From Terriglobia bacterium (GTDB lineage Bacteria > Acidobacteriota > Terriglobia > Terriglobales > Acidobacteriaceae), in NCBI GenBank assembly GCA_020073495.1, contig JAIQFD010000005.1, forward strand, positions 124,001-188,000: a DNA stretch of 64,000 bases, in the 5' to 3' direction. Below the pieces are notes generated by a model. That model made no database searches. It had not been told where the DNA came from and saw nothing but the letters and a program-made list of their open reading frames with translations. Positions 27,255 to 51,400 of the stretch are shown here, piece after piece. Position numbers and translations under genes: made by a program. The first letter of the stretch is position 1. Every line of letters begins with the position of its first letter.

Positions 27255-27431
27255 ATGAATGTACTGGTCACTGGCGGGGCTGGCTCTATCGGATCCCATG
27301 CCGCGCGGGCTCTCGTTCGTAAGGGGCACACGGTTGTCCTGTACGACAACCTGAGCACCGGTGACGGGTGTTTGGCCGCCGGGTTGGAATTGGTGGTCGG
27401 TGACACGGCGAACGCACCTTCTCTGATGTGA
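27255..27431 (+). pseudogene. truncated NAD-dependent epimerase fragment (galE-like)
   Basis: A 58-codon frame begins [20 protein letters not shown], the NAD-binding glycine motif of UDP-glucose 4-epimerase-like enzymes. It continues with VLYDNLSTG and GDTAN, then stops at TGA 27429-27431. Real family members have about 330 residues, and no continuation is seen in other frames. It appears to be a decayed remnant, with the CRP-type site at 27427 overlapping its end. Confidence 0.6.
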
Positions 27432-27442
27432 TACGCGTCACA
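27427..27442. promoter_or_regulatory. perfect CRP-type palindrome upstream of the TPR genes
   Basis: TGTGA-TACGCG-TCACA matches all ten consensus positions. It lies 100 bases before the ATG of the TPR gene at 27542, a usual distance for class I activation. Confidence 0.65.
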
Positions 27443-27541
27443 TTCGGGGGTGATTACAGACACAGTCCGGCGCGGTACCCCCCGCTATCGTGGAGGCATC
27501 CTGACACTCTCCGAAAAGTAGTGTGTGGAAGGGAAATCAGA

Positions 27542-28204
27542 ATGGGGCAAGACGCTCAGAATCGCTCCTCCGACTGGACCGGCACGCAAGCCTATGTGCT
27601 TGCTGTCATTTGCCTGCTGCTCGGGACTCTTGTCGGCTATCTCCTGCGGGGGTCGGGTCCAGCCCAGGCAGCACCCGCCGGACAATCCGCAGAAAGCGCG
27701 GCAGGCACGATGGGTTCTCAGGTCACTCCCGAGCAACTGAGGGTTATGGCCGACAAACAGGCCGAGCCGGTACTTGGGCAATTGAAGCTGAAGCCCAGCG
27801 ATCCCGCGCTGCTCATGCAGGCCGGCAACATCTATTACGACGCGCAACAATTCAAGGAAGCCGCCGACTACTATGCGCGCGCGCTCGAAGGCGATCCGAA
27901 GAACACCGATGTTCGTACCGACATGGCCACCGCGTATTGGTATCTGGGTGATGCAGACCGGGCTCTCGCGGAGTTCGACAGGGTACTCGAACAGCAACCG
28001 AACAAGGCGAATGCGCTGTTGAACCGCGGGATCGTGCGATGGAAGGGCAAGATGGACGTAAAGGGCGCCGTCGCAGACTGGGAAGGGCTGCTCAAGGCCA
28101 ACCCGGATTTTCCGCAGCGCTCGAACGTGGAGCAGTTGATTGCAGAAGCCAAGAGACACAGCAATATCAAGCCCGGCGAGAAGACGTCGAAGCCGGCCAT
28201 GTGA
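27542..28204 (+). CDS. membrane-anchored TPR protein (NrfG/CcmH-like)
   Basis: The 220-residue protein starts at ATG 27542 after GGAAGGGA. One N-terminal membrane helix (AYVLAVICLLLGTLVGYLL, about 18-36) is followed by an Ala-rich linker and about four tetratricopeptide repeats. Examples are AGNIYYDAQQFKEAADYYAR and a repeat starting TAYWYLGDADRALAEF. It is probably a periplasmic scaffold held at the inner membrane. The layout matches the TPR domain of cytochrome c maturation proteins such as NrfG and CcmH/CcmI, which fits the cytochrome genes downstream. Two paralogues share its N-terminal signature (28267 and 55923). Confidence 0.8.
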   Translation: MGQDAQNRSSDWTGTQAYVLAVICLLLGTLVGYLLRGSGPAQAAPAGQSAESAAGTMGSQVTPEQLRVMADKQAEPVLGQLKLKPSDPALLMQAGNIYYDAQQFKEAADYYARALEGDPKNTDVRTDMATAYWYLGDADRALAEFDRVLEQQPNKANALLNRGIVRWKGKMDVKGAVADWEGLLKANPDFPQRSNVEQLIAEAKRHSNIKPGEKTSKPAM

Positions 28205-28266
28205 AATCCGTTCTGACCTCCGGATGAGCGCGGGCCTCCGCGGGTAGTTGAATGCAAGGAGAGGGC

Positions 28267-28932
28267 ATGGACACGACATCGACACCTGGGACAAAGTGGA
28301 CCGCCAAACAGGCCTACGTATTGGCAGTCGTGTGCATGCTCTCCGGAATCCCCGTCGGCTATCTTCTTCGTGCCCCGTCCACCAGTGCGGTCAGGAATGC
28401 CGCTCAAGATTCGCAGCAACCGGTGCCCGGCGTGGCGGCTCGCGCCGATCAGATAACTCCTGAACAGCTGAAGCACATGGCCGATGTGCAGGCCGAGCCG
28501 TTGTTGGCCGCCCTGCGGAAAGACCCCAACAACCCGGACGTGCTTGCGCAGGCAGGCAGCGTGTATTTCCGCGCACATCAGTTTCCGATCGCGGTGGACT
28601 ATTACGAACGCGCCATGCAGATCAAGCCGACTGCCGATGGGCTCGTCTCGTTGTCTAACTCCTACCACTACGCCGGATCGGACGACCGTGCCATCGAGAC
28701 CTTGAAGCGGGCATTGCAGATTGATCCCAAGTCGCCCAATGCGCTCTTCAATCTCGGCATGCTGAACTGGCAGGTGAGGAACGATCCCAAAGCTGCGATC
28801 GAACTTTGGCAACGCATGCTGAAAACCAATCCGAACCATCCACGTCGCGCAGAGGTGGAAAGCATGATCGTCAAAGCCAAGGAGCACGTGAAGGTGCCCG
28901 CCGGGATGACAACCGCCAAGCCGGCACTGTAG
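28267..28932 (+). CDS. membrane-anchored TPR protein, second copy
   Basis: The 221-residue paralogue of the preceding gene starts at ATG 28267, with AGGAGAGGGC just upstream; the ATG at 28252 lies before this ribosome site. It repeats the pattern KWTAKQAYVLAVVCMLSGIP-VGYLLR at the N-terminus, a linker, the shared ITPEQLKHMADVQAEPLL segment and three or four TPRs. The 62-base gap suggests one transcript with the first copy. It probably binds unfolded apocytochromes or an assembly partner in the periplasm, by analogy with NrfG. No direct evidence of partner is visible. Confidence 0.8.
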   Translation: MDTTSTPGTKWTAKQAYVLAVVCMLSGIPVGYLLRAPSTSAVRNAAQDSQQPVPGVAARADQITPEQLKHMADVQAEPLLAALRKDPNNPDVLAQAGSVYFRAHQFPIAVDYYERAMQIKPTADGLVSLSNSYHYAGSDDRAIETLKRALQIDPKSPNALFNLGMLNWQVRNDPKAAIELWQRMLKTNPNHPRRAEVESMIVKAKEHVKVPAGMTTAKPAL

Positions 28933-33368: not shown

Positions 33369-35321
33369 TCACTTTGACTTCACGGGAACCCCGGTCCTTC
33401 CGATGCCCCTGAGAGCTGAAGGCGTAATCGTTCCATCGCCGTTGTGATCATAGCCGTGGCATCTCAGGGTACAGGTGTTCGTCGCTGAGTTATACGAGAT
33501 CGGGACTCCCGAGCCGTTCGCGGAGACTACGTTGGCGTCGAAGTTCACGAGCCCCACCCCAGGGATGCTGCCTGTCTGCGCGACCCCGTGAGCGGTATGG
33601 CAGACAGAGCACGAAAACCCATCAGTGATGATGTGACTTGCGTGCCCACTGAAGCTGCTGGCACTCAGGATCCCAGAACCAGTGAGGTCATGGCACTTGG
33701 CGCACATTGCAAAGGGCCCGCCTATACTCCCCAAGTTCGACGGAGTCAGCCCTTGGAGCGGATTCGTGATGTTCTGGCCTGGCGCGGGCGCCTGGCTGAA
33801 CTCGTAGCGGCGTTCCAGGATATGCATCCACTTGGAGCCGTGCGGTCCGTTGGGCCCCGGGCCACCGAACTCGCGATTGTCGTCGCTGTTATGGCAATCC
33901 GTGCACAGGATGCGGCTGCCGATTGGGCGCCCGTTTGTGATGCCGTCAAGATTCACCATGAACTTGCGAATGCTTGGCTGCGAGAATGAACTGCTGAAAT
34001 CACGCATCACAGGATGGCTTGAGAGCGTGGTACTGCCAAATTGAGAGATCACATTCAGAGGATCGCCTGCGGAATTAGGATATGCCGGCAAATAACCGAA
34101 TGTGGCGGGATTTGTGCCTTTTCCCGCGCTCGTGCCGTGGCAGCGCAGGCAGTTCTCATACTGATTGACCGCTGGAGTAAGGACAGTGACACCGTCTGCC
34201 GCACTGACTCCAGCGACGCCCGCTTGCGAGACTCGGATCGCGGGAGGGATGGTAAACGAGCTGACTTGATTGGCGGAATGAGGGTTGTGGCAGTCCGCAC
34301 AAGTGGCATGCCGGTTATTGCTCAACACTGCGGTTTCTGCAGCGTCGTGTACATTGTTCCCCGCCGGCAAAGGATGTCCCGGCTTGACAAACTCGGCGTA
34401 GATGTTCGGGGAACTGGGAGAAAGATTCAACTCGCCGCTGTGGCATGTCAGGCAATCCTGTGTGGTCGGGTCCACGGTAGGCGCCGGCGGGTTCGCGGCG
34501 CGGAGCAGCCGCACTGGACCCTGTGCATTGTGGGACATGTGACAGGAACTGCATGCATTCTGTGCGACAGTACCGTAGCTTCCAACCTGCGCCTGACCTG
34601 CCACCTTGTTCGTCGCCGTGGCATGGATGCTGCCAGTCCACCCCGCGATTGGGTTGACCTTCCCGGAAACCACGCGGTTTGGATCATGGCAAGCAAGGCA
34701 CATCTGGCCGTTCGAGCTGTCACGAACCAAGAAGTTCTGCGCGACCGTGTCGATACCTTGCACATGCGGGTTATGACAACTCGTGCACTCAATGTTGCCG
34801 CTCTTGAGCTTCACCTTTTGGAGCGGGTCGGCCGTCTTACCTTGCGAGACCAGGGATGCAACAAGATCAGGGGAATCCTTCATCGGTAGAACAACGCTGA
34901 AGGGATGTGACCCACTTAGATTAGTGCCCAGAACATCGATGTTGTTCATGTTCCCGGTCGTGGGGATCCTGCCATACGCTGCGCTTTGTCCCACTGCTAC
35001 CGTACCATCATGGCAACTGAGGCAGAGGCTGCTGGAACGCCCCAGGGGAGGTTGGGTGTTACCTTGCTGGGGAGAGGTGGAACTCGCGTAGGGCATGTAG
35101 GTCTGCTTCGAAAGTGTCTGGTTCCACAGAGGCGTTATGCCGCCGATCCCGCTGTGGGGAGCGTGGCAAAACGTACAACCGAGGTTCCCAGGGGCTAGAA
35201 CCGGCGACCCGCTCCCCGGCGACAAGTCGTGCATGCCGAGTACATCGCCGGATACTTGCGCCATCATTACGCCCTGGGCCAACAAGATCGTTGCGCAGGC
35301 TAACAAGAGTCTGGACTTCAC
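33369..35321 (-). CDS. multiheme c-type cytochrome, 11 CXXCH plus one CX3CH
   Basis: The 650-residue exported protein has a signal peptide (LLLACATILLAQGVMMAQ) and 11 CXXCH heme sites, many in paired-CXXCH form such as CTFCHAPHSG, CTSCHNPH and CSVCHTAHG. A twelfth site near the C-terminus is CTLRCH, a CX3CH. With 29 histidines there are enough for bis-His ligation of all hemes. GTG 35321 is the start, with GGAGGGGG upstream; it overlaps the stop of the NHL gene (GTGA), so translation is coupled. It is the last gene of the electron-transfer operon. Periplasmic or surface location is likely; the order of electron flow is not visible. Confidence 0.9.
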   Translation of the reverse strand: MKSRLLLACATILLAQGVMMAQVSGDVLGMHDLSPGSGSPVLAPGNLGCTFCHAPHSGIGGITPLWNQTLSKQTYMPYASSTSPQQGNTQPPLGRSSSLCLSCHDGTVAVGQSAAYGRIPTTGNMNNIDVLGTNLSGSHPFSVVLPMKDSPDLVASLVSQGKTADPLQKVKLKSGNIECTSCHNPHVQGIDTVAQNFLVRDSSNGQMCLACHDPNRVVSGKVNPIAGWTGSIHATATNKVAGQAQVGSYGTVAQNACSSCHMSHNAQGPVRLLRAANPPAPTVDPTTQDCLTCHSGELNLSPSSPNIYAEFVKPGHPLPAGNNVHDAAETAVLSNNRHATCADCHNPHSANQVSSFTIPPAIRVSQAGVAGVSAADGVTVLTPAVNQYENCLRCHGTSAGKGTNPATFGYLPAYPNSAGDPLNVISQFGSTTLSSHPVMRDFSSSFSQPSIRKFMVNLDGITNGRPIGSRILCTDCHNSDDNREFGGPGPNGPHGSKWMHILERRYEFSQAPAPGQNITNPLQGLTPSNLGSIGGPFAMCAKCHDLTGSGILSASSFSGHASHIITDGFSCSVCHTAHGVAQTGSIPGVGLVNFDANVVSANGSGVPISYNSATNTCTLRCHGYDHNGDGTITPSALRGIGRTGVPVKSK

Positions 35322-36424
35322 TGGTTTCCCCCTCCAGCCTGCTTTGCTAGTCCAAAGTAGCGAAAAACCTGAACCCGACGGTTATAAGAATCCACCACAT
35401 AGACACGATCATCTCGGTCGACCAGTAACCCGGTGGGCAAGCGGAATTCGCCGGCGCCTGTACCGTTCTGGCCGAAGTAGTACAAAAGTTGGCCTTCGCG
35501 GTTAAACACCTGCACCATGCTCAATAACCCATCCACAACGTAAAGATGGCCCTCAGAATCGAACCCGATCCCCTTGGGTCGGAAGGTCCCTCCGGCGCCG
35601 TCGCTTATCTTGCCGATGGCGTACTGGAAGCTCCCGGAGCGGTCCAGGATCTGCACGCGGAAGTTCATGGCATCTACGACGGCCAGGTTCTGCCCGTGCA
35701 GCAGCAGTTCGGTAGGAAAATTAAATTGACCAACATCAGCGCCATTCTGCCCGATGGTCTGTAGCACGCTGCCCTGCATGTCGAGCACGAATACCTTGTT
35801 GCGCAGCGTATCGGTAACATAGATCCGCTGTACGGCTGAATCCACGGCTATCCCGGTCGGCCGTTTGAAAAAGCCTTCTCCGCCTTTCAAACTGCCGAGC
35901 GCGTGCTTGAATTTCCCATTCGCATCGAAGACGAAGATCTTTCCTGACTCCGAATCAGTCACATAGATATTGTCTTGGGCATCAACGGCGATGCATTGTG
36001 GCCCGCGCAACGGATCCTTGCCCTTATCTTTGCGTTGCAGGAACTTATACTTCTGCTGTGCAAAATCAAAGATGTGCACGCCGAAAGCGCCCGGGTCAGT
36101 CACGATGAGTCGGCCGCGCGAGTCCATTGCGATGTCGTACGGACGCACGAAAGAGTGAAACTCAGGCTCGCCGGCGACGATGTCCACGACTTTGGTCCAG
36201 AAGCTGCGCTTGCTGCGCACCTCGCGTTCGGAACTGAAGCTGCGTTCGTAGGTAAGTTTGCGGCCTCCTTCCAGCAACAGCTCCGGAGGAGCCGGAGCGC
36301 TGACCTTCTCCCTGGCGTGCTTCGATGCCCAGGCCGGACACAGCAGGAGAAAGGCAATAGACGCCACTCTCAACACCGTGAGCAGACTTGCCTTCCGCGC
36401 CCCGCTCAAAAGAAGTTGAACCAC
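35318..36424 (-). CDS. exported NHL-repeat beta-propeller protein
   Basis: The 368-residue protein has an N-terminal signal (LLTVLRVASIAFLLLCPAWA) and about six NHL repeats of the form RPTGIAVDSAVQRIYVTDT, then blades around FPTELLLHGQNLAVVDAMNF and YVVDSYNRRVQVFRYFG. The propeller is probably periplasmic or on the cell surface, where such domains mediate protein contacts. The start is GTG 36424, overlapping the end of the beta-barrel gene by 19 bases, and the stop overlaps the cytochrome start. A second propeller gene lies in the same operon at 40401. The partner is unknown; proximity suggests cytochrome assembly. Confidence 0.85.
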   Translation of the reverse strand: MVQLLLSGARKASLLTVLRVASIAFLLLCPAWASKHAREKVSAPAPPELLLEGGRKLTYERSFSSEREVRSKRSFWTKVVDIVAGEPEFHSFVRPYDIAMDSRGRLIVTDPGAFGVHIFDFAQQKYKFLQRKDKGKDPLRGPQCIAVDAQDNIYVTDSESGKIFVFDANGKFKHALGSLKGGEGFFKRPTGIAVDSAVQRIYVTDTLRNKVFVLDMQGSVLQTIGQNGADVGQFNFPTELLLHGQNLAVVDAMNFRVQILDRSGSFQYAIGKISDGAGGTFRPKGIGFDSEGHLYVVDGLLSMVQVFNREGQLLYYFGQNGTGAGEFRLPTGLLVDRDDRVYVVDSYNRRVQVFRYFGLAKQAGGGNQ

Positions 36425-38238
36425 CTGGACACCCCAACATAAAGGGAGGATATAGCGCTCGGCGGATAGCCGCTCGCGCTGATGCCTTGCGTGAACTTGG
36501 TGTATCCCGCCCGGAGCCCGATCTTCCTCAACTGGTACTGTAGGGTGGTGTTAAAGACATCGGTTCGGTTCAAGGAACTTATCGTGTCCTGCACGGTGCT
36601 GTTGTGCGCCGTCGCATAGTTCGCTGATAGCGAAAGCCTGCGCACAGGGGAAGCAGCGATACCAAATCCGTAACTGCTTCCGCCAAAGAGGATCACCTGG
36701 CTTGCAGGCAGGACTGGGAAGGGCACCGGAGTCGGCTGCAGTCCCGAAGCAGTCAGGATTGAAGTCCCACTCGATCTCGAATAGTTGCCGCTGGCGGATA
36801 ACCAATGCACCGTGAGGCTGGTCGAGACGCTTTCGGCACTGCTTCCCGAACCTGCCTGGGCCGTCAAGCCGCTGTGGCCACCGCCGAACCCAGCGCTCCA
36901 AGCCACGTTCTTGCTCAGACGGCGGCTCACGTTGCCGCTGTAGTTATAAAAGGAGCTTGTATACAACACCAGCAGTGTCTGCACGTTCTGTGCGTAGCTG
37001 AACGATCCTGACAGGTTCCACCGCTTGATAGTGCGGGAGAAACCTATATTACCCATGAATCCGACTGAGCTGTTGCCAGCGTCGGTGGCGGTGTCCAGAA
37101 CGGTTGCGGACAAGGTGAACAAACCGAAAAGCTTCCGCCCATAATTCAAGTTTCCGCTGCAGAAGGTCGCACCGTAGCTCCGCCCCCCATAGAGTTGCTC
37201 GATGTGCGAGACTTGGGCGTTCGCCACCAGATTCCGCGTTAGGGCGTACCCTGCACTGCCGTACAAGCCGAGGGAGTGCGAGGTCGACGCAGAAGGCACC
37301 GGTGGGACGCCGCCGGCAGAGAGGATTGCCTGGTTCAAGACCCCAACAAGGTTGTCGCTGTAGCTCTCATTGAACGACAAAGTGAGCTTCTGCGAGGGGC
37401 GGAACGAGACGGCCGCATTCTCGCTGTCGATCGTGCTGCCGGTGCCGCTGTTACCCGCAGAACCACCCTCGTAGTCCGATCTGGTGAAGCCAACAGAGAA
37501 CCCCCCATGCAGGGGGAGGGAGTGCGAGGCGTTGACACCGAACGCGCTGCCGCTTGAAGTCCAAACCTGTTCCTGCTGGCCTGCCAGGAATTCAGGAACC
37601 GTCGCCTGAGAGGTCGAGTGATCGTAGGTGCCACTCAAGTGGAAGCCGGCAATCGAATATGTAGACCGGAGATTGATGTTTTGATTATCGGAATTGCTCT
37701 GCGTGTTCGTCCCATACACCAAGGATTCGCCGCTGCTCTTTGAGTAGCTTGCCGAGAGAGTGGGCCAGCCTGGAAGCAACGCGCTCCAGCCAATGCTGAA
37801 ACCCTGGCTGTTGCCATGGGTCGTGAAGTTAGGTTCTTCCGGAACTCCGAATGTTCCAGAACTGTTGTAGTCCCGTCTGAAACTGATGGAGCCCGGGAAA
37901 TGGCTGCCGCTAAAGATGTTGGCGGTAGCGTTGATCCCGCTGCTGTCGCTGATCGACTGATAGTTGGAATTGTCCCGCGACTGGTTGTAGTACGGCAGGA
38001 TGTTGAACGAAACAAAACTTGGGCTGTGGAAAGAGCCAGCTAGGTTGCCACTGAGCCCCACGTCCAGGCTGTGCTCGGAACTGATTTGGTTACCATAGAA
38101 TCCTGCATATCCCGCGGACACAGTGGCATTCGCGTTCATCTGGAGGTTCTCGCCGACTGTCACCTGTGCAGCGCACGGCAGCACCCAGAGGAAAAGCCCC
38201 GCCAGCATAGAGCGCCACCTTTGAAGGATACTGCACAC
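36406..38238 (-). CDS. outer-membrane beta-barrel protein (putative porin of cytochrome conduit)
   Basis: The 610-residue protein has a signal peptide ending in LPCAAQ and a mature part almost wholly of alternating polar/hydrophobic strands rich in Ser, Gly, Asn and Tyr. It ends in RWFNFF, with the C-terminal phenylalanine expected of a BAM substrate. About 24-26 strands would fit. There are no CXXCH motifs. By position between cytochrome genes it is a good candidate for the porin sheath of a porin-cytochrome conduit. Sequence alone cannot separate that from a structural barrel. The start is GTG 38238, or ATG 38208 with AAAGGTGG before it but a signal peptide lacking basic residues. Confidence 0.75.
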   Translation of the reverse strand: MCSILQRWRSMLAGLFLWVLPCAAQVTVGENLQMNANATVSAGYAGFYGNQISSEHSLDVGLSGNLAGSFHSPSFVSFNILPYYNQSRDNSNYQSISDSSGINATANIFSGSHFPGSISFRRDYNSSGTFGVPEEPNFTTHGNSQGFSIGWSALLPGWPTLSASYSKSSGESLVYGTNTQSNSDNQNINLRSTYSIAGFHLSGTYDHSTSQATVPEFLAGQQEQVWTSSGSAFGVNASHSLPLHGGFSVGFTRSDYEGGSAGNSGTGSTIDSENAAVSFRPSQKLTLSFNESYSDNLVGVLNQAILSAGGVPPVPSASTSHSLGLYGSAGYALTRNLVANAQVSHIEQLYGGRSYGATFCSGNLNYGRKLFGLFTLSATVLDTATDAGNSSVGFMGNIGFSRTIKRWNLSGSFSYAQNVQTLLVLYTSSFYNYSGNVSRRLSKNVAWSAGFGGGHSGLTAQAGSGSSAESVSTSLTVHWLSASGNYSRSSGTSILTASGLQPTPVPFPVLPASQVILFGGSSYGFGIAASPVRRLSLSANYATAHNSTVQDTISSLNRTDVFNTTLQYQLRKIGLRAGYTKFTQGISASGYPPSAISSLYVGVSRWFNFF

Positions 38239-38258
38239 TTCTCTTTGACCCCCGTCCC

Positions 38259-39272
38259 TCAGAACAGTTCCACTCTTGCACTTGTTCGTAACTTCTTATC
38301 CAGGTTGGCGCGGAGCTGGTTGGTCTTGTTCTTCCGCAGGTCCTTCCGCAGCGAGTCTTTCACCTGGGCAAACTCCGTCTTGCTGGCCGCATTGTGAGCA
38401 TTCAGCCGGATGATGGTGTAGGCCTGATCGATTGGGATCAGATCGCTGATCTGGCCGGGCTGCATGGCCAGTGCGGCCTGCACCACCGCCGGCGGCAGTT
38501 GTGTGCGGTCCACGGCGTGGTGGTCGCCCATGTTCACGCGGTAATCATCCTCGGACAGCTTTTCAGCCAACAGGCCAAACTCCTCGTAGGTCTTGGACGC
38601 CTTTGCCTGGCGCAGCGCATCGTCCGCACGCTTGCGCGCTTTCTGCAACTGTTCCACACTCGCCGTCGGTGGCGGCAGGATCGAAATCGTCTGGATGCTG
38701 AATGACTCATCGTGCTCGAAAAGCGCCGGGTTTTTGTCGTAGTAGGCCTTGAGTTCGGCCGCCGAAACCGCCGATTTGTGCTCCACCTCGGTTGTCAGCA
38801 GGGACTCGATCAATAGTGAGCGTCGGATCCTCTCGCGCAGCAACTGCCGGGAACCCCTCATCTCCCTCTGCAGATAGCTGTCAAACTCCGTCTGACTGGA
38901 AAACTGCTCGCGGAAATCCACTTCGGCGCGATTGATGCGCGCGAGCGGCACGGTCATCTTTCGGCGCACCGCTTCCTGGTATACCAGTTCCTCGAAGATG
39001 ATCATCTCCAGCGCGCCCTTACGGATCTCAGCCTCCTGGGACTTGGGGAACCCGTTGTGCTGCCGGGCGTAGGGAAAGATCGCCAACATCTCGCGCAGCA
39101 GATCCTGGTCGGTCAGCACGGCGCCGTTCACTCGGGCGACCGGCTTGCCCGTTGCCTGGTTCGCTGGGCTGGGCTGCTTCGTAACCAATGTTGGCGCGTG
39201 GGAGGCAACTTGGGCGGAGGCAGTGCCAAGCGCCACCAGCAGCAGAACAGTGATGGAAAACTCGTGCTTCAT
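38259..39272 (-). CDS. periplasmic parvulin-type peptidyl-prolyl isomerase (SurA/PpiD-like)
   Basis: The 337-residue protein begins at ATG 39272 with AGAGGATC upstream and a signal peptide MKHEFSITVLLLVALGTASA. A SurA-like N-terminal chaperone region follows (VARVNGAVLTDQDLLREML) and then a parvulin domain (about residues 195-300, with YEEFGLLAEKLSEDD and LPPAVVQAALAMQPGQISDL). Such enzymes chaperone unfolded outer-membrane and exported proteins. Lying between the tetraheme cytochrome and beta-barrel genes, it probably assists folding or polymer assembly of those products. The parvulin active-site residues are not all obvious, so catalytic competence is uncertain. Confidence 0.85.
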   Translation of the reverse strand: MKHEFSITVLLLVALGTASAQVASHAPTLVTKQPSPANQATGKPVARVNGAVLTDQDLLREMLAIFPYARQHNGFPKSQEAEIRKGALEMIIFEELVYQEAVRRKMTVPLARINRAEVDFREQFSSQTEFDSYLQREMRGSRQLLRERIRRSLLIESLLTTEVEHKSAVSAAELKAYYDKNPALFEHDESFSIQTISILPPPTASVEQLQKARKRADDALRQAKASKTYEEFGLLAEKLSEDDYRVNMGDHHAVDRTQLPPAVVQAALAMQPGQISDLIPIDQAYTIIRLNAHNAASKTEFAQVKDSLRKDLRKNKTNQLRANLDKKLRTSARVELF

Positions 39273-39339
39273 GATCCTCTTTCGTACGGCGGAGAAATTG
39301 GGGGAGAGAGATTCTCCCTCCCCCTTGTAAGCCATCAAT

Positions 39340-40284
39340 TTAGAAAGCAGTGAGGACAGCGCCTCTGGCAGCGTTGTTCGCCTCGTTCGAGTCCCCAAAG
39401 TGGCACTGACGGCAGAACTGCGTAGTCGAAGACGCCATGCCATTGCCGGCCATGGTGTTGGCGCCGGGGTTGTAGGGGCCCCTGACGAAGAAGAACGTCT
39501 GGTAATACTTGCCGCCCCCATCGTTGCCGATTTGCCTTGTCCCAGCTCCAGATGCGAACACATTCATGATGTGTTGGTTATGGCAGGTTGTGCAGGCCAC
39601 GAAGGCCTTGCCGCTACTGTTGACGCCGACCGATCGAAGCGCCGGCATTCCATAGACCGCCATGAAGTTGTCGTACTGGGAGTTCGCTGCTACCGTCCAC
39701 ACCGCACTGACGGTGCCGCTTTTGCTGGTGCTGGTGGTCATCGTGAGACCATACGCGGTCATGTCGCTTATGTTAGCCGCCGTGCCCACCGGATGGTCGT
39801 TTGCGTAGTTGCCGGCTCCGCTACCGTCATTGCCGAGCAGCGTCGGGATCGGGGCGGAACCATACCAGGACGGGAGAACCCCGAGCAGCTGCTCATAGGA
39901 CTGGCCCACCATCATGTTGGTGGGGGTGTACTTGCCGTCATGGCAGCTCAGGCAAAGTAGAATGCCGTTCACCTCTTTATTGCGAGGAGTGGCCAGCATG
40001 CCGGCGGTGAACGCTTGCACATATGCTCCGTTATCACCGGTGGCGATCTGGGTGCCATAGAGCACGCTTACATCCTTGCCCCACAGCGCATAATTGCCGT
40101 TGGCGGGATCAGTCGTGGCGAACCCACTTCCGGGCGGCCCGCTGTGCGGCTGGTGGCAGCCCGCGCAGCCGCGGCCTCTGTTTTGGTGAGCGCCCAGCAC
40201 GTCCCCCGTCGGCTGGTAGCTCTGCGCCATCACCAGGCCGGTGACGGCGAGAACGAACAGCAGAATCAAAGCTAGCTTCTTCAT
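39340..40284 (-). CDS. tetraheme c-type cytochrome, OmcE-like
   Basis: The 314-residue protein starts at ATG 40284 after AGGAGG. Signal peptide: MKKLALILLFVLAVTGLVMA. It has four CXXCH sites: CAGCHQPHSG, CLSCHDG, CTTCHNQH and CRQCH. The mature chain has exactly eight histidines: four proximal and four others (AHQ, QPH, NDHPVG and NQH), just enough for bis-His ligation of all four hemes. Few hemes per length, widely spaced, recall Geobacter OmcE and OmcS, whose subunits polymerise into nanowires and share one distal histidine between neighbours. The homology to OmcE is my judgement from motif layout, not a search. Confidence 0.8.
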   Translation of the reverse strand: MKKLALILLFVLAVTGLVMAQSYQPTGDVLGAHQNRGRGCAGCHQPHSGPPGSGFATTDPANGNYALWGKDVSVLYGTQIATGDNGAYVQAFTAGMLATPRNKEVNGILLCLSCHDGKYTPTNMMVGQSYEQLLGVLPSWYGSAPIPTLLGNDGSGAGNYANDHPVGTAANISDMTAYGLTMTTSTSKSGTVSAVWTVAANSQYDNFMAVYGMPALRSVGVNSSGKAFVACTTCHNQHIMNVFASGAGTRQIGNDGGGKYYQTFFFVRGPYNPGANTMAGNGMASSTTQFCRQCHFGDSNEANNAARGAVLTAF

Positions 40285-40337
40285 TGAGATAAGTCCTCCT
40301 GATAAGTTGTGTTGCGCAACTAAGTTGTTTCTACTGC

Positions 40338-40391
40338 CCGGAGACGGGCCTCGCCCGTATCTCCGGTTTGGCGGCCCCGGGGCCGCCAAAC
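40338..40391. repeat. two intergenic hairpins inside the cytochrome operon
   Basis: CCGGAGA...TCTCCGG (40338-40366) and a perfect 13-bp inverted repeat GTTTGGCGGCCCC / GGGGCCGCCAAAC (40366-40391) lie between the NHL gene and the tetraheme gene. The T-run is on the plus side, so on the operon strand the hairpin is more likely a processing or stability element than a terminator. Confidence 0.55.
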
Positions 40392-40400
40392 TTTTTGCGG

Positions 40401-41669
40401 CTACTTTGCCGCGGAACTTTTTTCGACGGCGGACGCACTCTCCTTCTGTGCCGCTGTGTCTGCCGGCTTCTCCGACCTTGCCGACTTCTTGTCCAGCTCC
40501 GCCTGCCGGCGTGCCCTCTCCGCCTCCGCCTCGGCATCGGTCACGTAGCGAAATTGCTGCACCCGGCCCGGATAGATCTCTGAAGTAAACACACGATTCT
40601 GTTTGTCAATGGTGATCCCGACCAAAGCCGCGAACTGGCCGGGAAGATTCCCGTGACCGCCGAGGTAGGTCAGCAACCGCCCCTCGTGATCGAACACCTG
40701 CACACGATCTTGCATTCCGTCGGCCACCCAGATGTGCCCATCGCCGTCCACGGCGACACCCTTGGGCCGCGCGAAGTATCCCGGCCCGTCGCCGTTCTTA
40801 CCGAAGGTGCTGATGAAATTACCGTCGGCGTCGAAGATCTCCACCCGGTTGTTCATCGTGTCCGCGACATAGAGGTTGCCTTCCTGATCCACCGCTACGC
40901 CCCCCGGCATCGCGAAGTCACCCGGCGTGGTGAGCTCGTGATTGTGTCCGGTCGTCCCGATCTTGCGCAGCAGCCTGAGACTGTCGGCGTCAAAAACCAG
41001 CACCTGGTCCAGTCCGATGTCGCTGACGTAGAGAAGCCGGTTCTCGGTGTCAATCGCCAGTCCACCTGGACGCCCCAGTCCCTCGCTGATGGTGGCTTCC
41101 ACTTCATGCTTGGGGTTGAACACCAGAACATGGCGCAACTCGGTATCGGAGACAAACAGGCGGTCGCTGTCGTCCATCGCCAAGTCAGTGATCCGGCCGA
41201 AATGCGCGTGCATGCCATTCTTGATGAGCGCAACATCCCTGGTATCCGTGTTGAAAATGAAGATCGCGCCCACTCGTACGTCCGCTACGTAGAGTCGGGC
41301 CTTGGAATCCACCGCCATGCCATACGGCTCGAATAGCTGAAAGCGAAGCTTGGGGTTTTCGCTCGCCGGCTGGGTCCCCGCCACGCGGTCCATCCAGCTT
41401 TGCTTCTTTTTCGTCGGGGAGAGTTCGATCTTCTCCCCTGCAAAGTAGGTCGTGTACTTGACTCGCGCGATGGCGGGCGGCTGAGGCCAGACGATCTTGG
41501 AATAGTCCAACATCTCAAGGACTGGAGGTTTGGGCGGTTCAGCTCCCTTCTTCTTTTTCTTTTCGGCGCCATAAAGGGAGAACGGCAAAGCCATTCCCAC
41601 GGCCAGCAGAACCACCAGCGCTATCACTCCCTCGCCACCGCGAATCGAACTTGAACGAACTTCAGACAT
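40401..41669 (-). CDS. exported NHL-repeat beta-propeller protein, second copy
   Basis: The 422-residue protein has an N-terminal hydrophobic signal or anchor (VIALVVLLAVGMALPFSLYG), a Lys-rich stretch and about six NHL blades, for example LFEPYGMAVDSKARLYVADV, MPGGVAVDQEGNLYVADT and RPKGVAVDGDGHIWVADG. The C-terminus is a charged Ala/Glu/Lys tail of about 45 residues. It lies between the 16-heme and tetraheme genes and shares the blade pattern with the propeller at 35318. It probably works in the periplasm as a scaffold. No catalytic motif is evident. Confidence 0.85.
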   Translation of the reverse strand: MSEVRSSSIRGGEGVIALVVLLAVGMALPFSLYGAEKKKKKGAEPPKPPVLEMLDYSKIVWPQPPAIARVKYTTYFAGEKIELSPTKKKQSWMDRVAGTQPASENPKLRFQLFEPYGMAVDSKARLYVADVRVGAIFIFNTDTRDVALIKNGMHAHFGRITDLAMDDSDRLFVSDTELRHVLVFNPKHEVEATISEGLGRPGGLAIDTENRLLYVSDIGLDQVLVFDADSLRLLRKIGTTGHNHELTTPGDFAMPGGVAVDQEGNLYVADTMNNRVEIFDADGNFISTFGKNGDGPGYFARPKGVAVDGDGHIWVADGMQDRVQVFDHEGRLLTYLGGHGNLPGQFAALVGITIDKQNRVFTSEIYPGRVQQFRYVTDAEAEAERARRQAELDKKSARSEKPADTAAQKESASAVEKSSAAK

Positions 41670-41693
41670 CTCCCCTACTCCCCAATCCCGCGT

Positions 41694-43190
41694 CTAGCGT
41701 GTTTGCTGCATATTCAGTCTGTTCTTGTGGCACGTGTCGCAGAATGCCATGTTATTGGCTTGATCCTTTACCAGCAGATCAGGCTGGGCCGAAGCGTGCG
41801 GCTGATGGCAGGTCAGACAGTTGAGGGAAGTCCTGACCTTGGTGCTGTCTGCCGGATCCATCAAGTTCGAAACCGGGTGAAGCTCTACCGGATGGCCCAG
41901 GTTGTACTTCAGCGGCAGCACCACCACCTTGCGGAAGTAGTTCTCCGGCAGCCTCACCTTGCCGTCAAAAATCGTTACCAAGTGTTCGCTCTCCAGCTTC
42001 TGCGGGTTGGCGTCCGGACCATGGCACTCGAGGCATAACTGGTTCGAGCTTCTCGCCCGCAGCAGCTTGGGGTTGTCGCCGCCGTGCGCTTGATGGCAGA
42101 CAGCGCATCCCTGCTCGAACGCCGGCTGGTGGAGCACGGCCTTCTTGTGCTGCTCCGCCTGGTCCGAGTGGCAGCCCAGGCAGATATTCACCGGATCGGT
42201 CCTGGGCAGACCTGGCGACTTGCTGGCGTGCGGGGTATGACAGTCGACGCACTCTCCCTGCGCACCGGGATGCTGCACCTTGGCGCTATCGATCAGCTTC
42301 GCCTTGTCCTCGTGGCACGTAACGCAGAGCGCCCTGGCGTTCGCCTGGGTCAGCACAACTTTTCCATCTTTCGCCGGCTGATGGCAGCTGTCGCACATCT
42401 TGTTCTCGAATGGATTGTGTGTGAACGCTTGCATCAGCTTCGGCGCCTTCGACTGGTGCGGATCGTGGCACTGGATGCAGTCCGTAGTTCCGAACGGCTG
42501 GTTCTGGTGCGCTTTCTGCAGGTTCGCGTCCTTGGCGTCGTGGCAATCCAGGCAAAGCGCCGGCGTGCCTTTGGTCAGGTGATAACGGAACTCTCGCTGC
42601 GCCGCATCGCCGTTCTTGTGCGTGACGTGGCAAGTCTCGCACCCCATGTCCAGCGCCGCGTGACGGCTGCCCTTGTCCTGGACGTTGACCCCCTGCGTGT
42701 GGCAGGTGAGACAAAGGTTTTCGTTCCGGCTCGCGCCCGAGGTCGCCTTGCGGAGCTGATTCTTGTTCTCTGCCGTGTGCGGGTCGTGGCACTTGATGCA
42801 ATCCCGCACCGCCGGCTGGTGCACGTGCCCTTTGATATCGGCGGCCTTTTTATCACTGTGGCAGGTGGCACATAGAGCCGAGGTGGTGGTGGTGGTCAGC
42901 TTGACGTAGGTGGTTTCCTTGTTGACCCGGACTTCGTGGCAGGCGGTGCACCCCATGGCGATGGCCGAATGCACGACCTTGCCTTTGCTCTTGTTCTCGT
43001 GGCAGCCGATGCAAGTCGCCGCGTCCGTGTTCTTCGCCAGCGGTACCGGATGTTTCTTTGCTGCCGCGGGCGAAACCAAGAGCAGCACAACGATCAGCGC
43101 CGTCGCTCCAGATAATGTCTGCTGGCCAAGGGAAGCAATCTTCCCCGCCTGCCGGATCAGGAGATGGAGCGGATTGGTCAGGGCCGTCAC
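41694..43190 (-). CDS. 16-heme c-type cytochrome (doubled-CXXCH family)
   Basis: The 498-residue protein has a signal region (TALIVVLLLVSPAAA) and 16 CXXCH motifs at close spacing, most as CXXCHxPH or CXXCHxAH pairs such as CIKCHDPHTAE, CIQCHDPHQS and CVDCHTPHAS. Up to 16 hemes in about 450 mature residues give a dense, probably periplasmic, heme wire. GTG 43190 is the start, with GGAGA about ten bases upstream. It is the first gene of the seven-gene minus-strand operon that ends at 33369. It is divergent from resB and ccsA, which encode the machinery that attaches heme. Confidence 0.92.
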   Translation of the reverse strand: MTALTNPLHLLIRQAGKIASLGQQTLSGATALIVVLLLVSPAAAKKHPVPLAKNTDAATCIGCHENKSKGKVVHSAIAMGCTACHEVRVNKETTYVKLTTTTTSALCATCHSDKKAADIKGHVHQPAVRDCIKCHDPHTAENKNQLRKATSGASRNENLCLTCHTQGVNVQDKGSRHAALDMGCETCHVTHKNGDAAQREFRYHLTKGTPALCLDCHDAKDANLQKAHQNQPFGTTDCIQCHDPHQSKAPKLMQAFTHNPFENKMCDSCHQPAKDGKVVLTQANARALCVTCHEDKAKLIDSAKVQHPGAQGECVDCHTPHASKSPGLPRTDPVNICLGCHSDQAEQHKKAVLHQPAFEQGCAVCHQAHGGDNPKLLRARSSNQLCLECHGPDANPQKLESEHLVTIFDGKVRLPENYFRKVVVLPLKYNLGHPVELHPVSNLMDPADSTKVRTSLNCLTCHQPHASAQPDLLVKDQANNMAFCDTCHKNRLNMQQTR

Positions 43191-43640: not shown

Positions 43641-45083
43641 ATGGTTCCAGACCTCCTCGCTTGGAAACGCCGGTTTTGGCAGTTGATGGGCTCCGTCCGC
43701 ACCGGCATCGTCCTGCTGATTCTTATCGGGATTGCCACCTTTGCGGGCACCATCATCATGCAGCGCCCGATCAACGACGCCAATAAGCTTCACCAGGCGT
43801 ACTCGCCCCAGATCCTGCGCTGGCTCGATGCCCTCGGCCTGACCGACGTCTTCCACAGCTGGTGGTTCGCCGTTCTGCTTGCCCTGCTCAGTGCCAACAT
43901 CGTGGTCGCTTCGCTGGATCGTTGGCCCCAGGTCTGGAAATATTTCGCTCGCCCCTATCGCCGCGCCGAGCCTCACTTCCTCGCCTCGCTCAGCATGCAG
44001 CACGAGATCCGCATTCGCGACGAGGCCAGCGGCATCGAGGCCGCCGAGGCCGCCTTCCGCTCCGTCGGTCTCCGGCCCCAGCGCATCATCAAGGACACCG
44101 TTTCCCTTTACGCCGAGAAATTCCGCTTCGCCCGCCTGGCTCCCTTCGTTGTGCACGCCAGCCTGCTGCTGATCTTCGCCGGCGTCATGATCGATGGCCT
44201 GTGGGGCTATCGCGGCTACATCTCCCTGGTTCCAGGCGAGACCGGCCGGCAGATCGAGATGCGCGACGGCACGCGCAAGACCCTTCCCTTTTCCCTGCGT
44301 TGCGATGGCACCGGACAGGAGAACTATCCCGACGGAAGTCCCCAGCGCTGGTGGTCGAAGCTGGCTGTCATCGAAGACGGTCACCAGACTCAGGCCAAAG
44401 AGATCGCCGTGAATGATCCCCTGGTCCATCGGGGGATCCGCTTTTTCCAATCGGGCTACGGTCCGACCGGCGAGTTGCAGGCGGTCAAGGTGACGGCCAC
44501 GGCCAAGGCCGGCGGCGCCCGGCAGACACTCGAACTGGCGCCCGACAAGACCGTGTCCCTCGACCCCGCTACAACCGTCCGCCTGGCGCAGTTCGTCCCC
44601 GATTTCGAGATCGCCGGCAACCAGATTCAGACGCGCTCGCAGCAGCCCAACAACCCGGCCCTCCAACTTGTCGTCACCACCGCCAAGGGAGACGTTTCCG
44701 CCTGGCTTTTTCCCAAGATGCCCGAGTTCGCCCACGGCAACGATTCCCCCTACGACTTCGCAGTCGCCGGGATGGAGCCGCAGCATTACACCGGGCTCGA
44801 GGTTTCCTACGAGCCGGGGCAATGGGGCGTGTGGGCCGGCGTCATCCTGATGGGCTTCGCGCTGGCGCTGGTTTTCTACTTCGTCCACATCCGCTTCTGG
44901 GCGGTCCCGGTGGACGACGGCCGCGGACGACTGGTCCTGTGGGTGGGCGCTTCGGCCAGCAAGAACCGGGACGAGGTCGAGCAGCGTTTCAATCACCTCG
45001 TCCTATTGATCGAGAACAACCTGGAGGCTGCCGCCGCCGCAGCGCGCGAGACGCACCGCGCCTCGGAACTGGTGGCGCACTAG
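43641..45083 (+). CDS. resB: cytochrome c biogenesis protein ResB (Ccs1)
   Basis: The 480-residue protein is one half of the System II cytochrome c synthetase, which carries heme to apocytochromes in the periplasm. It has three N-terminal membrane helices (after [20 protein letters not shown], then around [20 protein letters not shown], and near [20 protein letters not shown]), a large periplasmic domain and a last helix ([18 protein letters not shown]). The histidine in VVHAS of the third helix corresponds to a heme-handling position in ResB/Ccs1. It is followed by ccsA after 22 bases. High demand for heme attachment by the neighbouring 16-, 12-, 10- and 4-heme cytochromes fits the position. 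Confidence 0.9.
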
Positions 45084-45105: not shown

Positions 45106-46506
45106 ATGAGTACCCGTGCTCATGCCGAACAGCACCCCGCCGGGAGCAGCAATCTCTTGCTCTTCCTGGTTTCGCTGGCGACCGTCTTCATGCTCCTGAT
45201 GTCCTTCCTCGGCACCATCAAGACCCGGACATTCTTCACCGAAGACAACCTGCTCTTCGTTGCGCTCACCTTTTACGCCGCGGCCACCGTGCTTTACGTG
45301 GGCTTCGCCGTCACCGGCACCGACCGCTTCATCAAGGCCGCGTGGGCCGCCACCTGGCTGGGATTTTTCGCCAACACCGGCGCCGGCGCGCACCGCTGGT
45401 ACGTCGCCGGACACGCCCCCTTCTCCAGCATCTACGAGATGCTGCTCGCGTTTGTCTGGTCCATCGCCGTGCTGACCCTGTTCGTGCAGAAGCGCTATGG
45501 CGTGAAAGTGGTCGGGACCATCACCATGCCGCTGGCCGCGCTGGGCATCATCCTCATGCAGTTGCTGCCCTCCGACATTCACCCGCTGGTGCCGGCGCTG
45601 CAATCCACCTGGCTGCACATCCACGTCACCCTCGCCATGCTGTCTTATGCCGCCTGCGCCGTCAGCTTCGCCCTGGCCATGATGTTCCTCATCCAGGACA
45701 ACATGCGCACGGAATCGTTCCTGGCCAATACCAGCGTGTTCGTCAGTCTCATCTACGCCGCCATCATCACGCGCTTCGCCGAGGGCGGCCTCAAGGTCGC
45801 CGCCTTCGACCCCCAGAGCAACAGCGAGTTCATCATCCAGCGCGGGCAGTCGCTGATGGTCGTCATCCCCAATCTGGGATGGATGTTCCTGCTGGCCATG
45901 ATCGTCACCCTGGTTCCCACCGGCCTCTACTTTTGGGGATGGTTTGCCGGCGATGAGAACAAGTACCGCATGGCCGACGCCGCCTTCTTCGTCGGCATGC
46001 TCTTCCAGGTGCTGGCCACGGCGGCCTTCATCACCCGCGCCCGCGACGGCGCCTATCCCTCCCCCATGGCCGACGGTCTCTTCGCCACCCGGCTCTCCAC
46101 CAGCCCCTTCATCCTCTCCGGGCTGATCGCGGGCCTGATGGCCTCGCTGCTCTACCTGATGTTGAAGTGGAGAAGGGAAGGATTGCAGGAGATGTTGCCC
46201 TCGGCCGGGCGCCTCGACAGCCTGACCTACAAGACCATCGGCATCGCCTTCCCGCTCTTGACCCTGATGATCGCCGCCGGCGCGTACTGGGCCAATCAGA
46301 CGTGGGGCTCGTACTGGAGCTGGGACCCGAAAGAAACCGCGGCGCTGATCACCTGGATCGTGTACGCCGGCTATCTGCACATGCGCATCGCGCGCGGCTG
46401 GCGCGGACGCCGCGCCGCCTACTTCGCCATCCTCGGCTTCGCCGTGGTCATGTTCACGTTCTTCGGAGTCACGTACCTCTTACCGGGGCTGCACGCCTAC
46501 GCTTAA
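45106..46506 (+). CDS. ccsA: cytochrome c biogenesis protein CcsA (heme exporter/ligase subunit)
   Basis: The 466-residue protein is the other half of System II. It is longer than the usual about 320 residues because of an extended N-terminal membrane part. The WWD-type periplasmic heme-binding motif appears as [18 protein letters not shown] near the C-terminus. Flanking histidines are conserved in helices with [19 protein letters not shown] and [14 protein letters not shown]. It presents reduced heme to apocytochromes with ResB. The gene starts at ATG 45106 after GGAGAACC. A GGGGCCGGA / TCCGGCCCC hairpin (46562-46584) downstream may end the transcript. Confidence 0.92.
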
Positions 46507-48438: not shown

Positions 48439-51400
48439 ATGTATTTCCGTTCTCTTACCATCTTATTCATTGGAGCTTCATTGCTGTTGTGGGCCGGGTG
48501 GGGAGTCCCGAATGCGACTGCATCACCTGTTCGTCCGGAACGGGAGAAGGCGCTCGCAAAATACGTTGATATCCCCGGCTCCTCCAGCGTGGGAAGCGAC
48601 GTCTGCGCGGGCTGTCACGAGGATACCAGCAAGAATTTCCAGCATGCTTTTCACAAGCAGCAGGGAGTGGAATGCGAGGATTGCCACGGCAAGGGCAGCC
48701 TCCACGTGGATGGAGGCGGTGACGTGGCGAAGATCATCAGCTTCGGGAAACGCCCGGCACAGACCGCCAACGGTGTTTGCTTGGGCTGCCACACGCGCGA
48801 CGAGAAGGTACGGCATTGGTTGGGCGGGTCGCACGCAGCGAACCACGTTCGCTGTATCGATTGCCACCAGATCCACGACCGCGCCCTGAAAGCCGCGGAC
48901 GAAGGCCGGATGCGCTTCGATACGGCGACTCGGGCAGCCTTCACTGCAGGGTCAGTGTCACCGGAAACCAATGTGATACTCCGGCCCAGATCAGAGACGA
49001 ACGATGCCTGTATCAAGTGCCATCAGACCCAAGGCGCGCAACTCAGCATGCCCTACCATCACCCCTTGCGCGAAGGCAAGATGAGTTGTGCGGATTGTCA
49101 CGATCCGCATGGCGGGCCGGCGGGCAACAATCTGCGGACGGCGAGCGTGAATCAGCTCTGTCTGGGCTGCCATGCCCAGTATCGCGGGCCGTTTGCCTAC
49201 CAGCATCCCCCGGTGACGGAAAACTGCATGAACTGCCACACCGCCCACGGCTCGCCGAACACGAATTTGCTCTCCGTGAGCATGCCTGCGCTGTGCTTGC
49301 AATGCCATGCCGGCCACCATAACGGGGCCGGTCTGCCCCTGCCCGATCGCTGCACCAACTGCCACGGGTCGATCCACGGCACCGATGTCGCCACACCCAG
49401 CGGCGGCAGCAGATTCGTGGACAAAGGGCCCTACGGCTTGCCTGATCCCCCGCCTGCATCTGCTCACTCCCCGGTGGCGCCAATGGCCGCACATTCGGCG
49501 GTCTCTTCGGCGCTGCGTCCGGTTCCGTCTCACGTGCCGTCGTATGCCGTAGGCGCTGCGAGCGGGACGCTGGGCATGATGTCATCCGGATATCTGCCGC
49601 CGCTGTCGGGCGGGAACATGGGGGGTGGGGGCGGAGATCCTGGAGCCGCGGAGGGAGCCGGCCCATACTCGGTCTACTCCCTGACTCCAGGCTCGTACCG
49701 CTTCGTTGACGGTTCCGGCTTCCTGGGCCGGGTCGGCGAGTATGACACCCTGCAACAGTCGGCTGGGGCAAGCGCCGTCACTACCTATGTCTCACCCCAG
49801 AACCACTTGACCCTGGTCTCCCGCGCCGAGCTCCTGACCGGCGACGATTACTCTGCCGCCTCCCAGCTGACTGTGGGTGAGTGGCTGAAGGCCGGGTTCG
49901 ACATGCGCAGCTTCGTGCAGCAGCAGGACCATTATCCTTTCTACGCGGGAGCGATGTCGTCGGACTTCCTTCCCCCTGACGGCAGCATCGATCTGATCCC
50001 TTCTCACACGCCCCTCGCGGTGACCAGAAGGCTTGGCAACGCCTACGCACGCTTGAAGGTGCCGAAACTGCCGGTCCATCTCTTCGTGAAGGGGGATTGG
50101 AAGGCCAGGGCAGGGGTGACTCAACTTAGGTATCTCGACGAGAACACGAACAACAACTGCGGCGAGTTTTGCCACTACACATCCCAGCGCCAGCGGACCA
50201 ACTACACGACTCGGAATATCGCTGGCGGCGCGGACATTGACCTCGGTCCCGTCAGGATCACCTGGGAGCATCTTTTCAGCAGCTTCGCCGATCGGTGGAC
50301 ATTTCCTACCGGCATCTTTGGACCGTTCACCCCGGCAGACGAGCCGCCTCCTTTCCCGATACCCACGCCGCCCGCCGTCGTGCCCGGAAACTACCCGCTC
50401 GACATCCCCTCCCCCAACCAGGCGTCGTCGGACACGCTGAACTTGACCTGGACGGCTTCGCCCAAAGTCAGCTTCAACGGCCACGTTAGCTATACGCGCT
50501 TACGCAACACACTGACCGGCAACCCGCAGAACACGTTCCAGACCGACGAGACCGTGAACTGGCGTCCGCTCGACCGCTTGCGGGTGACTGCCGACTACCA
50601 CCAGCAGAACCTCATCAACAACTTCATACCTTTCTACGACCTGTTTGGGAATGTTTCCTATCATCGGCACACGATCGGCGTGCGCTCGGACTACGAACTA
50701 CCCAAGGGCTTCGATGTGGAAGGCTACTACCGGCGCACTGGCATCACCCGATCCAATTCGTCCCTGTGGCCGCAAGGCTACTCCTTCAGCAACTCGGACT
50801 TGTTGATGGTCGTACCCGAATCCTTCAGCAACACTACAGGTCTGGCGCTGCGTTATCACGGCCGCGGGCACTGGAGCGCGCGCGCGGGATACGAATGGAC
50901 CGGGACCCACGATCCCGGCTACCTGACCGTTCCCCAGAGCAACAACCGTGCCTTCGCCAATATCTGGGTCACGCCTGCAAAATGGCTGACCTTCTCCAAC
51001 GACGTGAACATCATCGTCCAGAATGCCTTTCCCGCCAGTCCGCTTCTCCGGCTCGATGGAACCGGACTTCCCGGGGATTTCCAGCGGCGCAACCGCTTCT
51101 ACATTGAGACGCTCAGCGCCACCTTGCGGCCCGTCTCGGGGTGGAACCTGGGACTGGGATACTCCTACCAGCAGAACAGTCTGACCACCTATATGGCGTT
51201 TCAGAACGATTCGGGGGTCGGATATGTCATCAACGAACCCGCCGTGCCCTACAAGCAGATCACCCAGGCCTACTGGGCCGAGTCGACCTACCTGGTCAAG
51301 AAGCGCCTGGGGCTTGATCTCAGGCTCACCTATAACTCGGCACGTAGCGATATGCGCCCCGACGTCAATCCAGCCGATGCGGCGCTGCTCGGTAACCAGT

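Follow-up and report, generated by a model that had tools for sequence, protein, structure and literature searches.

What does a compact run of cytochrome, propeller and barrel genes contribute to an acidobacterium? The question is raised by a 64,000-nucleotide stretch of Terriglobia bacterium DNA (GenBank assembly GCA_020073495.1, contig JAIQFD010000005.1, positions 124,001 to 188,000; hereafter the window), which carries on its minus strand, between window positions 33369 and 43190, genes for a 16-heme cytochrome (A16), an NHL propeller (B), a tetraheme cytochrome (C), a parvulin-type peptidyl-prolyl isomerase (PPIase; D), a β-barrel (E), a second NHL propeller (F) and a 12-heme cytochrome (G12). 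A preliminary description of this DNA had read them as one operon for extracellular electron transfer of the porin-cytochrome or nanowire type. All seven frames are open across that interval, the heme counts of 16, 4 and 12 were borne out by counting CxxCH motifs, and Pfam matches identified both propellers and the isomerase. We think it probable, with appreciable doubt, that the operon specifies both an OmcE-family cytochrome nanowire and the outer-membrane conduit feeding it. A single gene set would then unite a wire-family subunit, a 12-heme protein containing the same module and a barrel, so that the connection between wire and cell becomes testable.

The tetraheme protein is the candidate wire subunit. 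Alignment of C with 31 orthologs shows no variation (32/32) at any of the eight heme cysteines or eight histidines of mature C; the histidines comprise four proximal and four distal ligand candidates. C is therefore predicted to hold what bis-His tetraheme binding needs, namely four CxxCH motifs and four further histidines. A profile built from seven C orthologs and two shorter relatives from the same phylum matched OmcE (PDB ID: 7tfs) at 4.6e-16 and 9yuq, a 16-chain entry titled "putative multiheme cytochrome c", at 1.2e-14; one of the shorter relatives alone reached 5e-26 and 9e-29, respectively. The seven orthologs by themselves (profile A1) matched 9yuq at 7.4e-5, with OmcE not among the matches, and a profile of 32 close orthologs made without the intermediates matched 9yuq at 5.2e-8. 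Alignment of C with an OmcE-like set by hhalign gave a probability of 99.2% (6e-20, 134 columns). With the single C sequence as query, phmmer retrieved no multiheme wire from the solved structures, the best match being a virus protein at an E-value of 0.63. In the 297 genomes searched from the phylum, the C protein matched 8, some weakly, and profile A2 matched 43, in part within long frames that resemble the 12-heme protein. When C was first aligned with 42 distant relatives (A5), heme 3 fell on heme 4. Across MAFFT settings and 40 random subsets, all four hemes were aligned in 10, the largest of which (15) was used as A7; this alignment was chosen for bringing all four hemes together, and among the settings --genafpair aligned all 42 relatives whereas --localpair and --auto aligned 0 of 42. 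On these profiles and intermediates, C is assigned to the OmcE nanowire family as a diverged member, and the nanowire side of the preliminary description gains support. OmcE homologs are described as widespread (PMC12307469), and OmcE has one heme whose ligand is a histidine reaching across the interface from the neighboring subunit (PMC12954529, PMC12307469; the literature is cited here and below from excerpts of the papers). We would guess that the N-terminal His33 of C is the corresponding cross-subunit ligand.

The same module recurs within the 12-heme protein. Residues ∼20 to 220 of G12 form an OmcE-like tetraheme module that keeps every one of its eight OmcE-type histidines and its eight cysteines in 25 of 25 close proteins (the window's own included) and in 48 of 48 distant ones, the latter selected from the 80 cross-phylum loci described below as having 11 to 13 motifs and 520 to 700 amino acids. 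By hhalign, the module aligned with the OmcE-like set at 9.6e-43 (close proteins) and 4.4e-73 (distant proteins), and with C at 5.4e-25. An octaheme profile made from the distant proteins matched the C-terminal part of the window G12 at 3e-70; it also matched the 16-heme protein at 1e-13, and multiheme profiles must therefore be read with caution for cross-matching. No solved relative of the octaheme part was found by phmmer at a threshold of 0.01. In one locus of the phylum (L067, 9776-11619) the protein is split into separate 4-heme OmcE-like and 8-heme genes. From its sequence, then, G12 appears to be a nanowire-subunit-like module joined to an octaheme part, a 4+8 build. Our literature search returned no report of this build or of the relation between the tetraheme and OmcE, within a coverage that left outside the primary Uet, OmcE-structure and 2023 widespread-nanowire papers.

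The proposed conduit includes E and A16. No Pfam family matched E at an E-value of 0.01. An AlphaFold2 model built from a 33-row alignment has 24 strands, with a predicted local distance difference test score (pLDDT) of 65.7, a predicted template modeling score (pTM) of 0.60 and low-confidence stretches, the longest at residues 373 to 454. Foldseek matches to this model are outer-membrane barrels, among which siderophore receptors lead by E-value and MtrB ranks 36; among the 50 matches listed, MtrB has the top query-normalized TM-score (0.50). VIA-align places MtrB first (Z score of 18.7, 474 residues aligned, 5.7 Å root mean square deviation). The C terminus conforms to RW[FL]xxF in 24 of 24 orthologs. 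The barrel model and this terminal aromatic signature together favor the porin proposed in the preliminary description, and support assignment of E as a large outer-membrane β-barrel, at middling model confidence. A16 matched 6r2q_A, a chain of an Mtr complex that we take to be MtrA (our table labels it cystathionine beta-synthase), at 8.9e-18, and the DmsE profile TIGR03508 at 4e-50, below the cut-off of that model. Its sequence thus marks A16 as a relative of MtrA, and it is probably a periplasmic or barrel-threading electron carrier.

The seven genes (Table 1) are predicted to form an operon. In the whole genome (3.70 Mb, 8 contigs), only four NHL matches were found at an E-value of 0.001 or better, all of them inside B and F; because of this, and because the gene order recurs in other genera, the grouping exceeds chance. 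Of the coupled overlaps described previously, those between the barrel and NHL2 (19 bp) and between NHL2 and the 12-heme gene (4 bp) stand, whereas the tetraheme and PPIase genes are separate, since ATG starts were chosen upstream of signal-like N termini (C, 39340-40284; PPIase from 39272); these two starts are the analyst's choice. Window proteins with at least two heme motifs carry 16, 4, 12 and 11 motifs. Four promoter-like sites (2.5 in shuffled sequence, SD 2.1) and 15 terminator-like sites (9.7, SD 3.4) were counted and were not used as evidence.

Table 1. Genes of the predicted operon and the divergent cytochrome c biogenesis genes, in window coordinates
Gene	Predicted product	Position	Strand	Basis
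A16	16-heme cytochrome, MtrA/DmsE-related	41694..43190	-	498 aa (amino acids), 16 CxxCH
B	NHL β-propeller 1, signal-like N terminus	40401..41669	-	PF01436 4e-27
C	Tetraheme cytochrome, OmcE family, candidate wire subunit	39340..40284	-	314 aa, 4 CxxCH
D	SurA/parvulin-type peptidyl-prolyl isomerase, signal-like N terminus	38259..39272	-	PF13145 5e-16 (PPIC-type), PF13624 SurA_N 1.6e-8
E	Outer-membrane β-barrel	36406..38238	-	AlphaFold2 model, C-terminal signature
F	NHL β-propeller 2	35318..36424	-	PF01436 1.5e-26
G12	12-heme cytochrome, OmcE-like module and octaheme part	33369..35321	-	650 aa; 11 CxxCH and one CX3CH (CTLRCH)
ResB	System II cytochrome c synthetase, divergent from operon	43641..45083	+	PF05140 3.5e-87
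CcsB-type	Cytochrome c biogenesis protein, system II	45106..46506	+	TIGR03144 3e-73

A lack of conserved clustering among homologs had been set beforehand as the finding that would refute the preliminary description; the cluster proved to be kept within the family, and variants of it occur in many bacterial groups. With barrel E as a second bait after the tetraheme neighborhoods, 66 of 250 sampled family genomes were found to encode it, which makes the seven-gene set a candidate marker for extracellular electron exchange in this family. Twenty barrel neighborhoods were hand-picked from these 66 genomes so as to spread over the score range. The tetraheme, PPIase, barrel and 12-heme genes are consecutive in all 20, and a separate NHL2 was called in 19, the remaining one (L180) having a 12-heme frame of 779 amino acids. 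In 13/20 the 16-heme and NHL1 genes are paired upstream, matching the window; in 4/20 the pair is on the opposite side of the cluster, and in 3/20 it is absent from the fetched stretch or only partly visible. All seven genes follow the window order in 12 neighborhoods, and this order was found again in other genera. Presence is patchy, given that the barrel had no match in the only genome of the same genus among the 250. Of 24 family loci, 12 have ResB and 10 have CcsB inside the sequence that was fetched; the preliminary description did not mention this pair, which lies divergently beside the window operon. A second tetraheme paralog adjoins the cluster in some loci, lying upstream of the first copy in L162 and beside the 12-heme gene, in opposite orientation, in L015, L163, L164, L169 and L170; it might be an alternative wire subunit.

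Beyond the family, 21 OmcE-like rows were used to scan species genomes, which yielded at least 573 relatives; the best 80, as scored against one OmcE-like protein from a phylum relative, were kept as cross-phylum loci. These 80 come from Bacteroidetes, Calditrichota, Chlorobiota, Proteobacteria, Desulfobacteraceae, Gemmatimonadota, Verrucomicrobia and others. A frequent arrangement runs from the tetraheme through NHL, a 5- or 9-heme cytochrome, a barrel of ∼655 amino acids, sometimes a 9- to 21-heme cytochrome, and NHL to the 12-heme protein; many proteobacterial loci have no gene between NHL and barrel. Where 4 kb downstream was available (n = 64), an NHL gene lay within that distance in 60 loci, making NHL genes near-constant partners. 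In the 36 loci flanked by 9.9 kb on both sides, NHL was present in 35, the 12-heme protein in 32 and all three of NHL, barrel and 12-heme in 30. The barrel family itself was counted in 55/64 and 32/36, figures biased upward, as proximity to cluster genes (within 1.5 kb) was among the criteria for admitting a protein to the ∼655-residue set; the NHL and 12-heme counts are independent of this. An hmmsearch with the distant barrel family did not match the five window-type barrels, and hhalign related the two at 95.9% (6e-9), so that this family is assigned, at the level of profiles, as a remote relative of E. CcsB occurs in 7 of the 80 loci and the PPIase in 2, its position being taken often by a 5- or 9-heme cytochrome gene and elsewhere by nothing; the PPIase is therefore an accessory of some lineages.

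Solved OmcE itself was also used as the query. It matched short (210 to 337 amino acids) and long (559 to 740) frames in four of four Desulfobacterota/Deltaproteobacteria genomes, at ∼41 to 49% identity over the module (41 to 45% for the long frames), and in one of these clusters (genome G519, locus L214) the long frame is the cluster's own 12-heme protein. In the phylum of a Syntrophaceae locus, 41 of 395 genomes matched OmcE at 1e-20, again including long frames that resemble the 12-heme protein. Nine neighborhoods found with this query all contain NHL, and six contain ResB and CcsB; L213 and L214 are of the window type, with the barrel family and a 12-heme gene. The two loci nearest OmcE (60% identity) comprise ResB, CcsB, 11-heme, 8-heme, NHL, OmcE and a protein of ∼750 amino acids in which no relation to either barrel family could be detected. 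The gene content of these loci suggests that OmcE-family loci are of two kinds, the window belonging to the kind with a 12-heme protein. A separate observation from the acidobacterial phylum is a 1092-residue frame with 42 heme motifs that lies near OmcE-like genes (L068, 4123-7401).

How might such a set of proteins work? A16, barrel E and G12 would relay electrons between the periplasm and a polymer of C. A16 would carry them across the periplasm, and the barrel would be threaded either by A16 or by the octaheme part of G12. Anchored in place, the other part of this protein, its OmcE-like module, would start the wire: C subunits would stack on it outside the cell in heme-to-heme fashion, and each unit would lend its N-terminal histidine as ligand to a heme of its neighbor, by analogy with the OmcE contact, although the identity of that histidine is a guess. 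The propellers may hold the cytochromes at the membrane, and the isomerase may help to fold the barrel or C; these are inferred roles, in keeping with the suggestion in the preliminary description that these proteins help to export or assemble the cytochromes. Electron flow could serve outward respiration, exchange with a partner or, as proposed for Uet, uptake. The most specific element of this scheme, which we put forward tentatively as possible rather than probable, is that G12 is the base of the wire: evolution would have joined an OmcE-like module to an octaheme part seated in or on the barrel, and the C polymer would dock on it through the same histidine-sharing, heme-to-heme contact that links C to C. 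If true, a module found across many bacterial phyla would answer how cytochrome wires connect to the cell, and its presence within G12 is the general point worth following, as it suggests how a wire may be plugged in.

Several results weigh against this picture of a wire and its conduit. MtrB is not separated from other barrels in the structural comparison of E, since PirA (Z score of 18.0) is tied with it within 1, and the Pfam family MtrB_PioB (PF11854) has no match in E or anywhere in the genome. The profile of 32 C orthologs matches OmcE at 0.031 only, hhalign covers only 134 columns, which hold hemes 1 and 2 and the DHP histidine, C is ∼80 residues longer than OmcE, and its AlphaFold2 model (16 rows) has a pLDDT of 36.9. 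G12 (3.8e-14, residues 178 to 353) and A16 (9e-10) both exceed the cut-off of Pfam PF22113, which models MtrC/MtrF domains II/IV, and G12 may, as this match suggests, be an MtrC-like surface cytochrome. Lastly, seven of the nine loci found with the OmcE query, the two nearest OmcE included, have no 12-heme gene, and in them the ∼750-residue protein replaces the barrel family; OmcE-type wires can thus dispense with G12.

The barrel could instead be a secretion channel for the tetraheme subunits, to which propellers and isomerase guide C while A16 and G12 act as separate periplasmic carriers. Pilus ushers do score close behind MtrB against the E model (PapC third, with a Z score of 17.5, and FimD at 16.5), and the neighbors that constantly accompany the tetraheme across phyla are NHL and the barrel family, at the counts given above. 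Within the family, however, the barrel partners the 12-heme protein as constantly as it does C, an MtrA-related cytochrome lies in the same operon, and secretion of OmcS and OmcZ is credited to PilA-N (PMC12307469); we regard this explanation as distinctly unlikely. A different objection concerns C itself, which, like UetA, could work as a monomer within a porin-cytochrome complex, as its terminal reductase or shuttle, rather than as the subunit of a polymer. The window gene set equals that of Uet, whose tetraheme is not termed a wire in the excerpted text (PMC10734462), and C is both longer than OmcE and diverged from it, yet it retains all eight ligand positions of OmcE, the N-terminal histidine included, and the same module is repeated in G12. 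A monomeric C therefore seems improbable to us.

Both of these proposals concern the parts, whereas a third concerns the direction of flow: the system may import electrons, from Fe(II), a cathode or a partner, rather than export them. Heme chains conduct both ways, and Uet has been discussed for cathode and iron oxidation (PMC10734462, PMC13386937). As direction is not readable from these genes, they do not themselves speak for import, which we consider somewhat unlikely. Our preferred interpretation of a wire and its conduit accommodates flow either way.

The window and the rest of the genome hold other cytochrome-related genes. At 48439-51663 (plus strand), a 1074-residue protein has a decaheme MtrA-like N terminus (6r2q_A at 2.3e-37) fused to a region of ∼670 residues that ends in GRRW and is, from its sequence, probably a barrel, with 17 amphipathic-strand peaks against 10.0 in shuffled sequence (SD 2.8). 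No MtrB match was found in the protein by profile. The fused form occurs in six other genomes among 120 of the family, in L191 and L192 the decaheme and barrel parts are two adjacent genes, and the eleventh motif of the fusion, a CX3CH, is kept in five of five aligned fused proteins and absent in L192. In the six stretches covered, no other gene of the seven-gene operon was labeled beside it. The product is possibly a natural MtrA-barrel fusion conduit. Two adjacent TPR proteins at 27428-28932 (plus strand) weakly resemble the CcmH/CycH TPR domain of cytochrome c biogenesis (7e-6 and 5e-7, below the family cut-off). Elsewhere in the genome (G000) are two other multiheme loci, at C1 191506-196430 and C2 63122-63601; one has a NapC/NirT-like match (2.5e-9) and one is a 360-residue frame like the decaheme part of the fusion. 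They are possible inner-membrane or periplasmic partners.

Among characterized systems, MtrCAB and MtrAB of Shewanella share with the window an MtrA-related cytochrome (A16), a barrel whose best structural match, in a tie with PirA, is MtrB, and two proteins, G12 and A16, that pass the MtrC/MtrF domains II/IV model, although E falls outside Pfam MtrB_PioB. To our knowledge, a wire-type tetraheme, propellers and a PPIase are not part of MtrCAB. The remark in the preliminary description that acidobacterial systems of this kind are little studied is fair; it is also incomplete, as MtrCAB has been described in Acidobacteriia (PMC8805035) and the same gene set is present in Uet elsewhere. The four-gene core of SEEP-SRB1 (propeller, 16-heme, 26-heme and PPIase) likewise places a propeller and a PPIase beside large cytochromes, and the Oet cassette holds OmcX- and OmcS-like cytochromes (PMC5539420, PMC10553843); by their descriptions, the cytochromes of both differ from those in the window.

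The OmcE nanowire of Geobacter sulfurreducens provides a homologous tetraheme with the same four CxxCH motifs and distal histidines as C, which is longer and is linked to it via intermediates. The loci nearest OmcE also resemble the window in having NHL, multiheme cytochromes and ResB-CcsB; they differ in their 8- and 11-heme cytochromes, in the ∼750-residue protein with no detectable relation to E and in having no 12-heme gene.

The closest correspondence by gene list is to the undecaheme electron transfer (Uet) system of Ca. Tenderia electrophaga and Gallionella, which comprises an extracellular tetraheme (UetA), a PPIase (UetB), a barrel (UetC), trihemes (UetDEG), NHL proteins (UetHI) and an 11/12-heme cytochrome (UetJ) (PMC10734462); undecaheme cytochromes are further attributed to Ca. 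Dechloromonas occultata (PMC13264449). The window repeats the tetraheme, the PPIase, the barrel, the pair of NHL proteins and the 11/12-heme protein, but has one MtrA-related 16-heme protein in place of the trihemes; no triheme cytochrome was found within the 64-kb window, the rest of the genome not having been searched for them. The window operon would thereby link two literatures that, in the excerpts cited, are treated apart, that of OmcE nanowires and that of Uet and undecaheme porin-cytochrome clusters.

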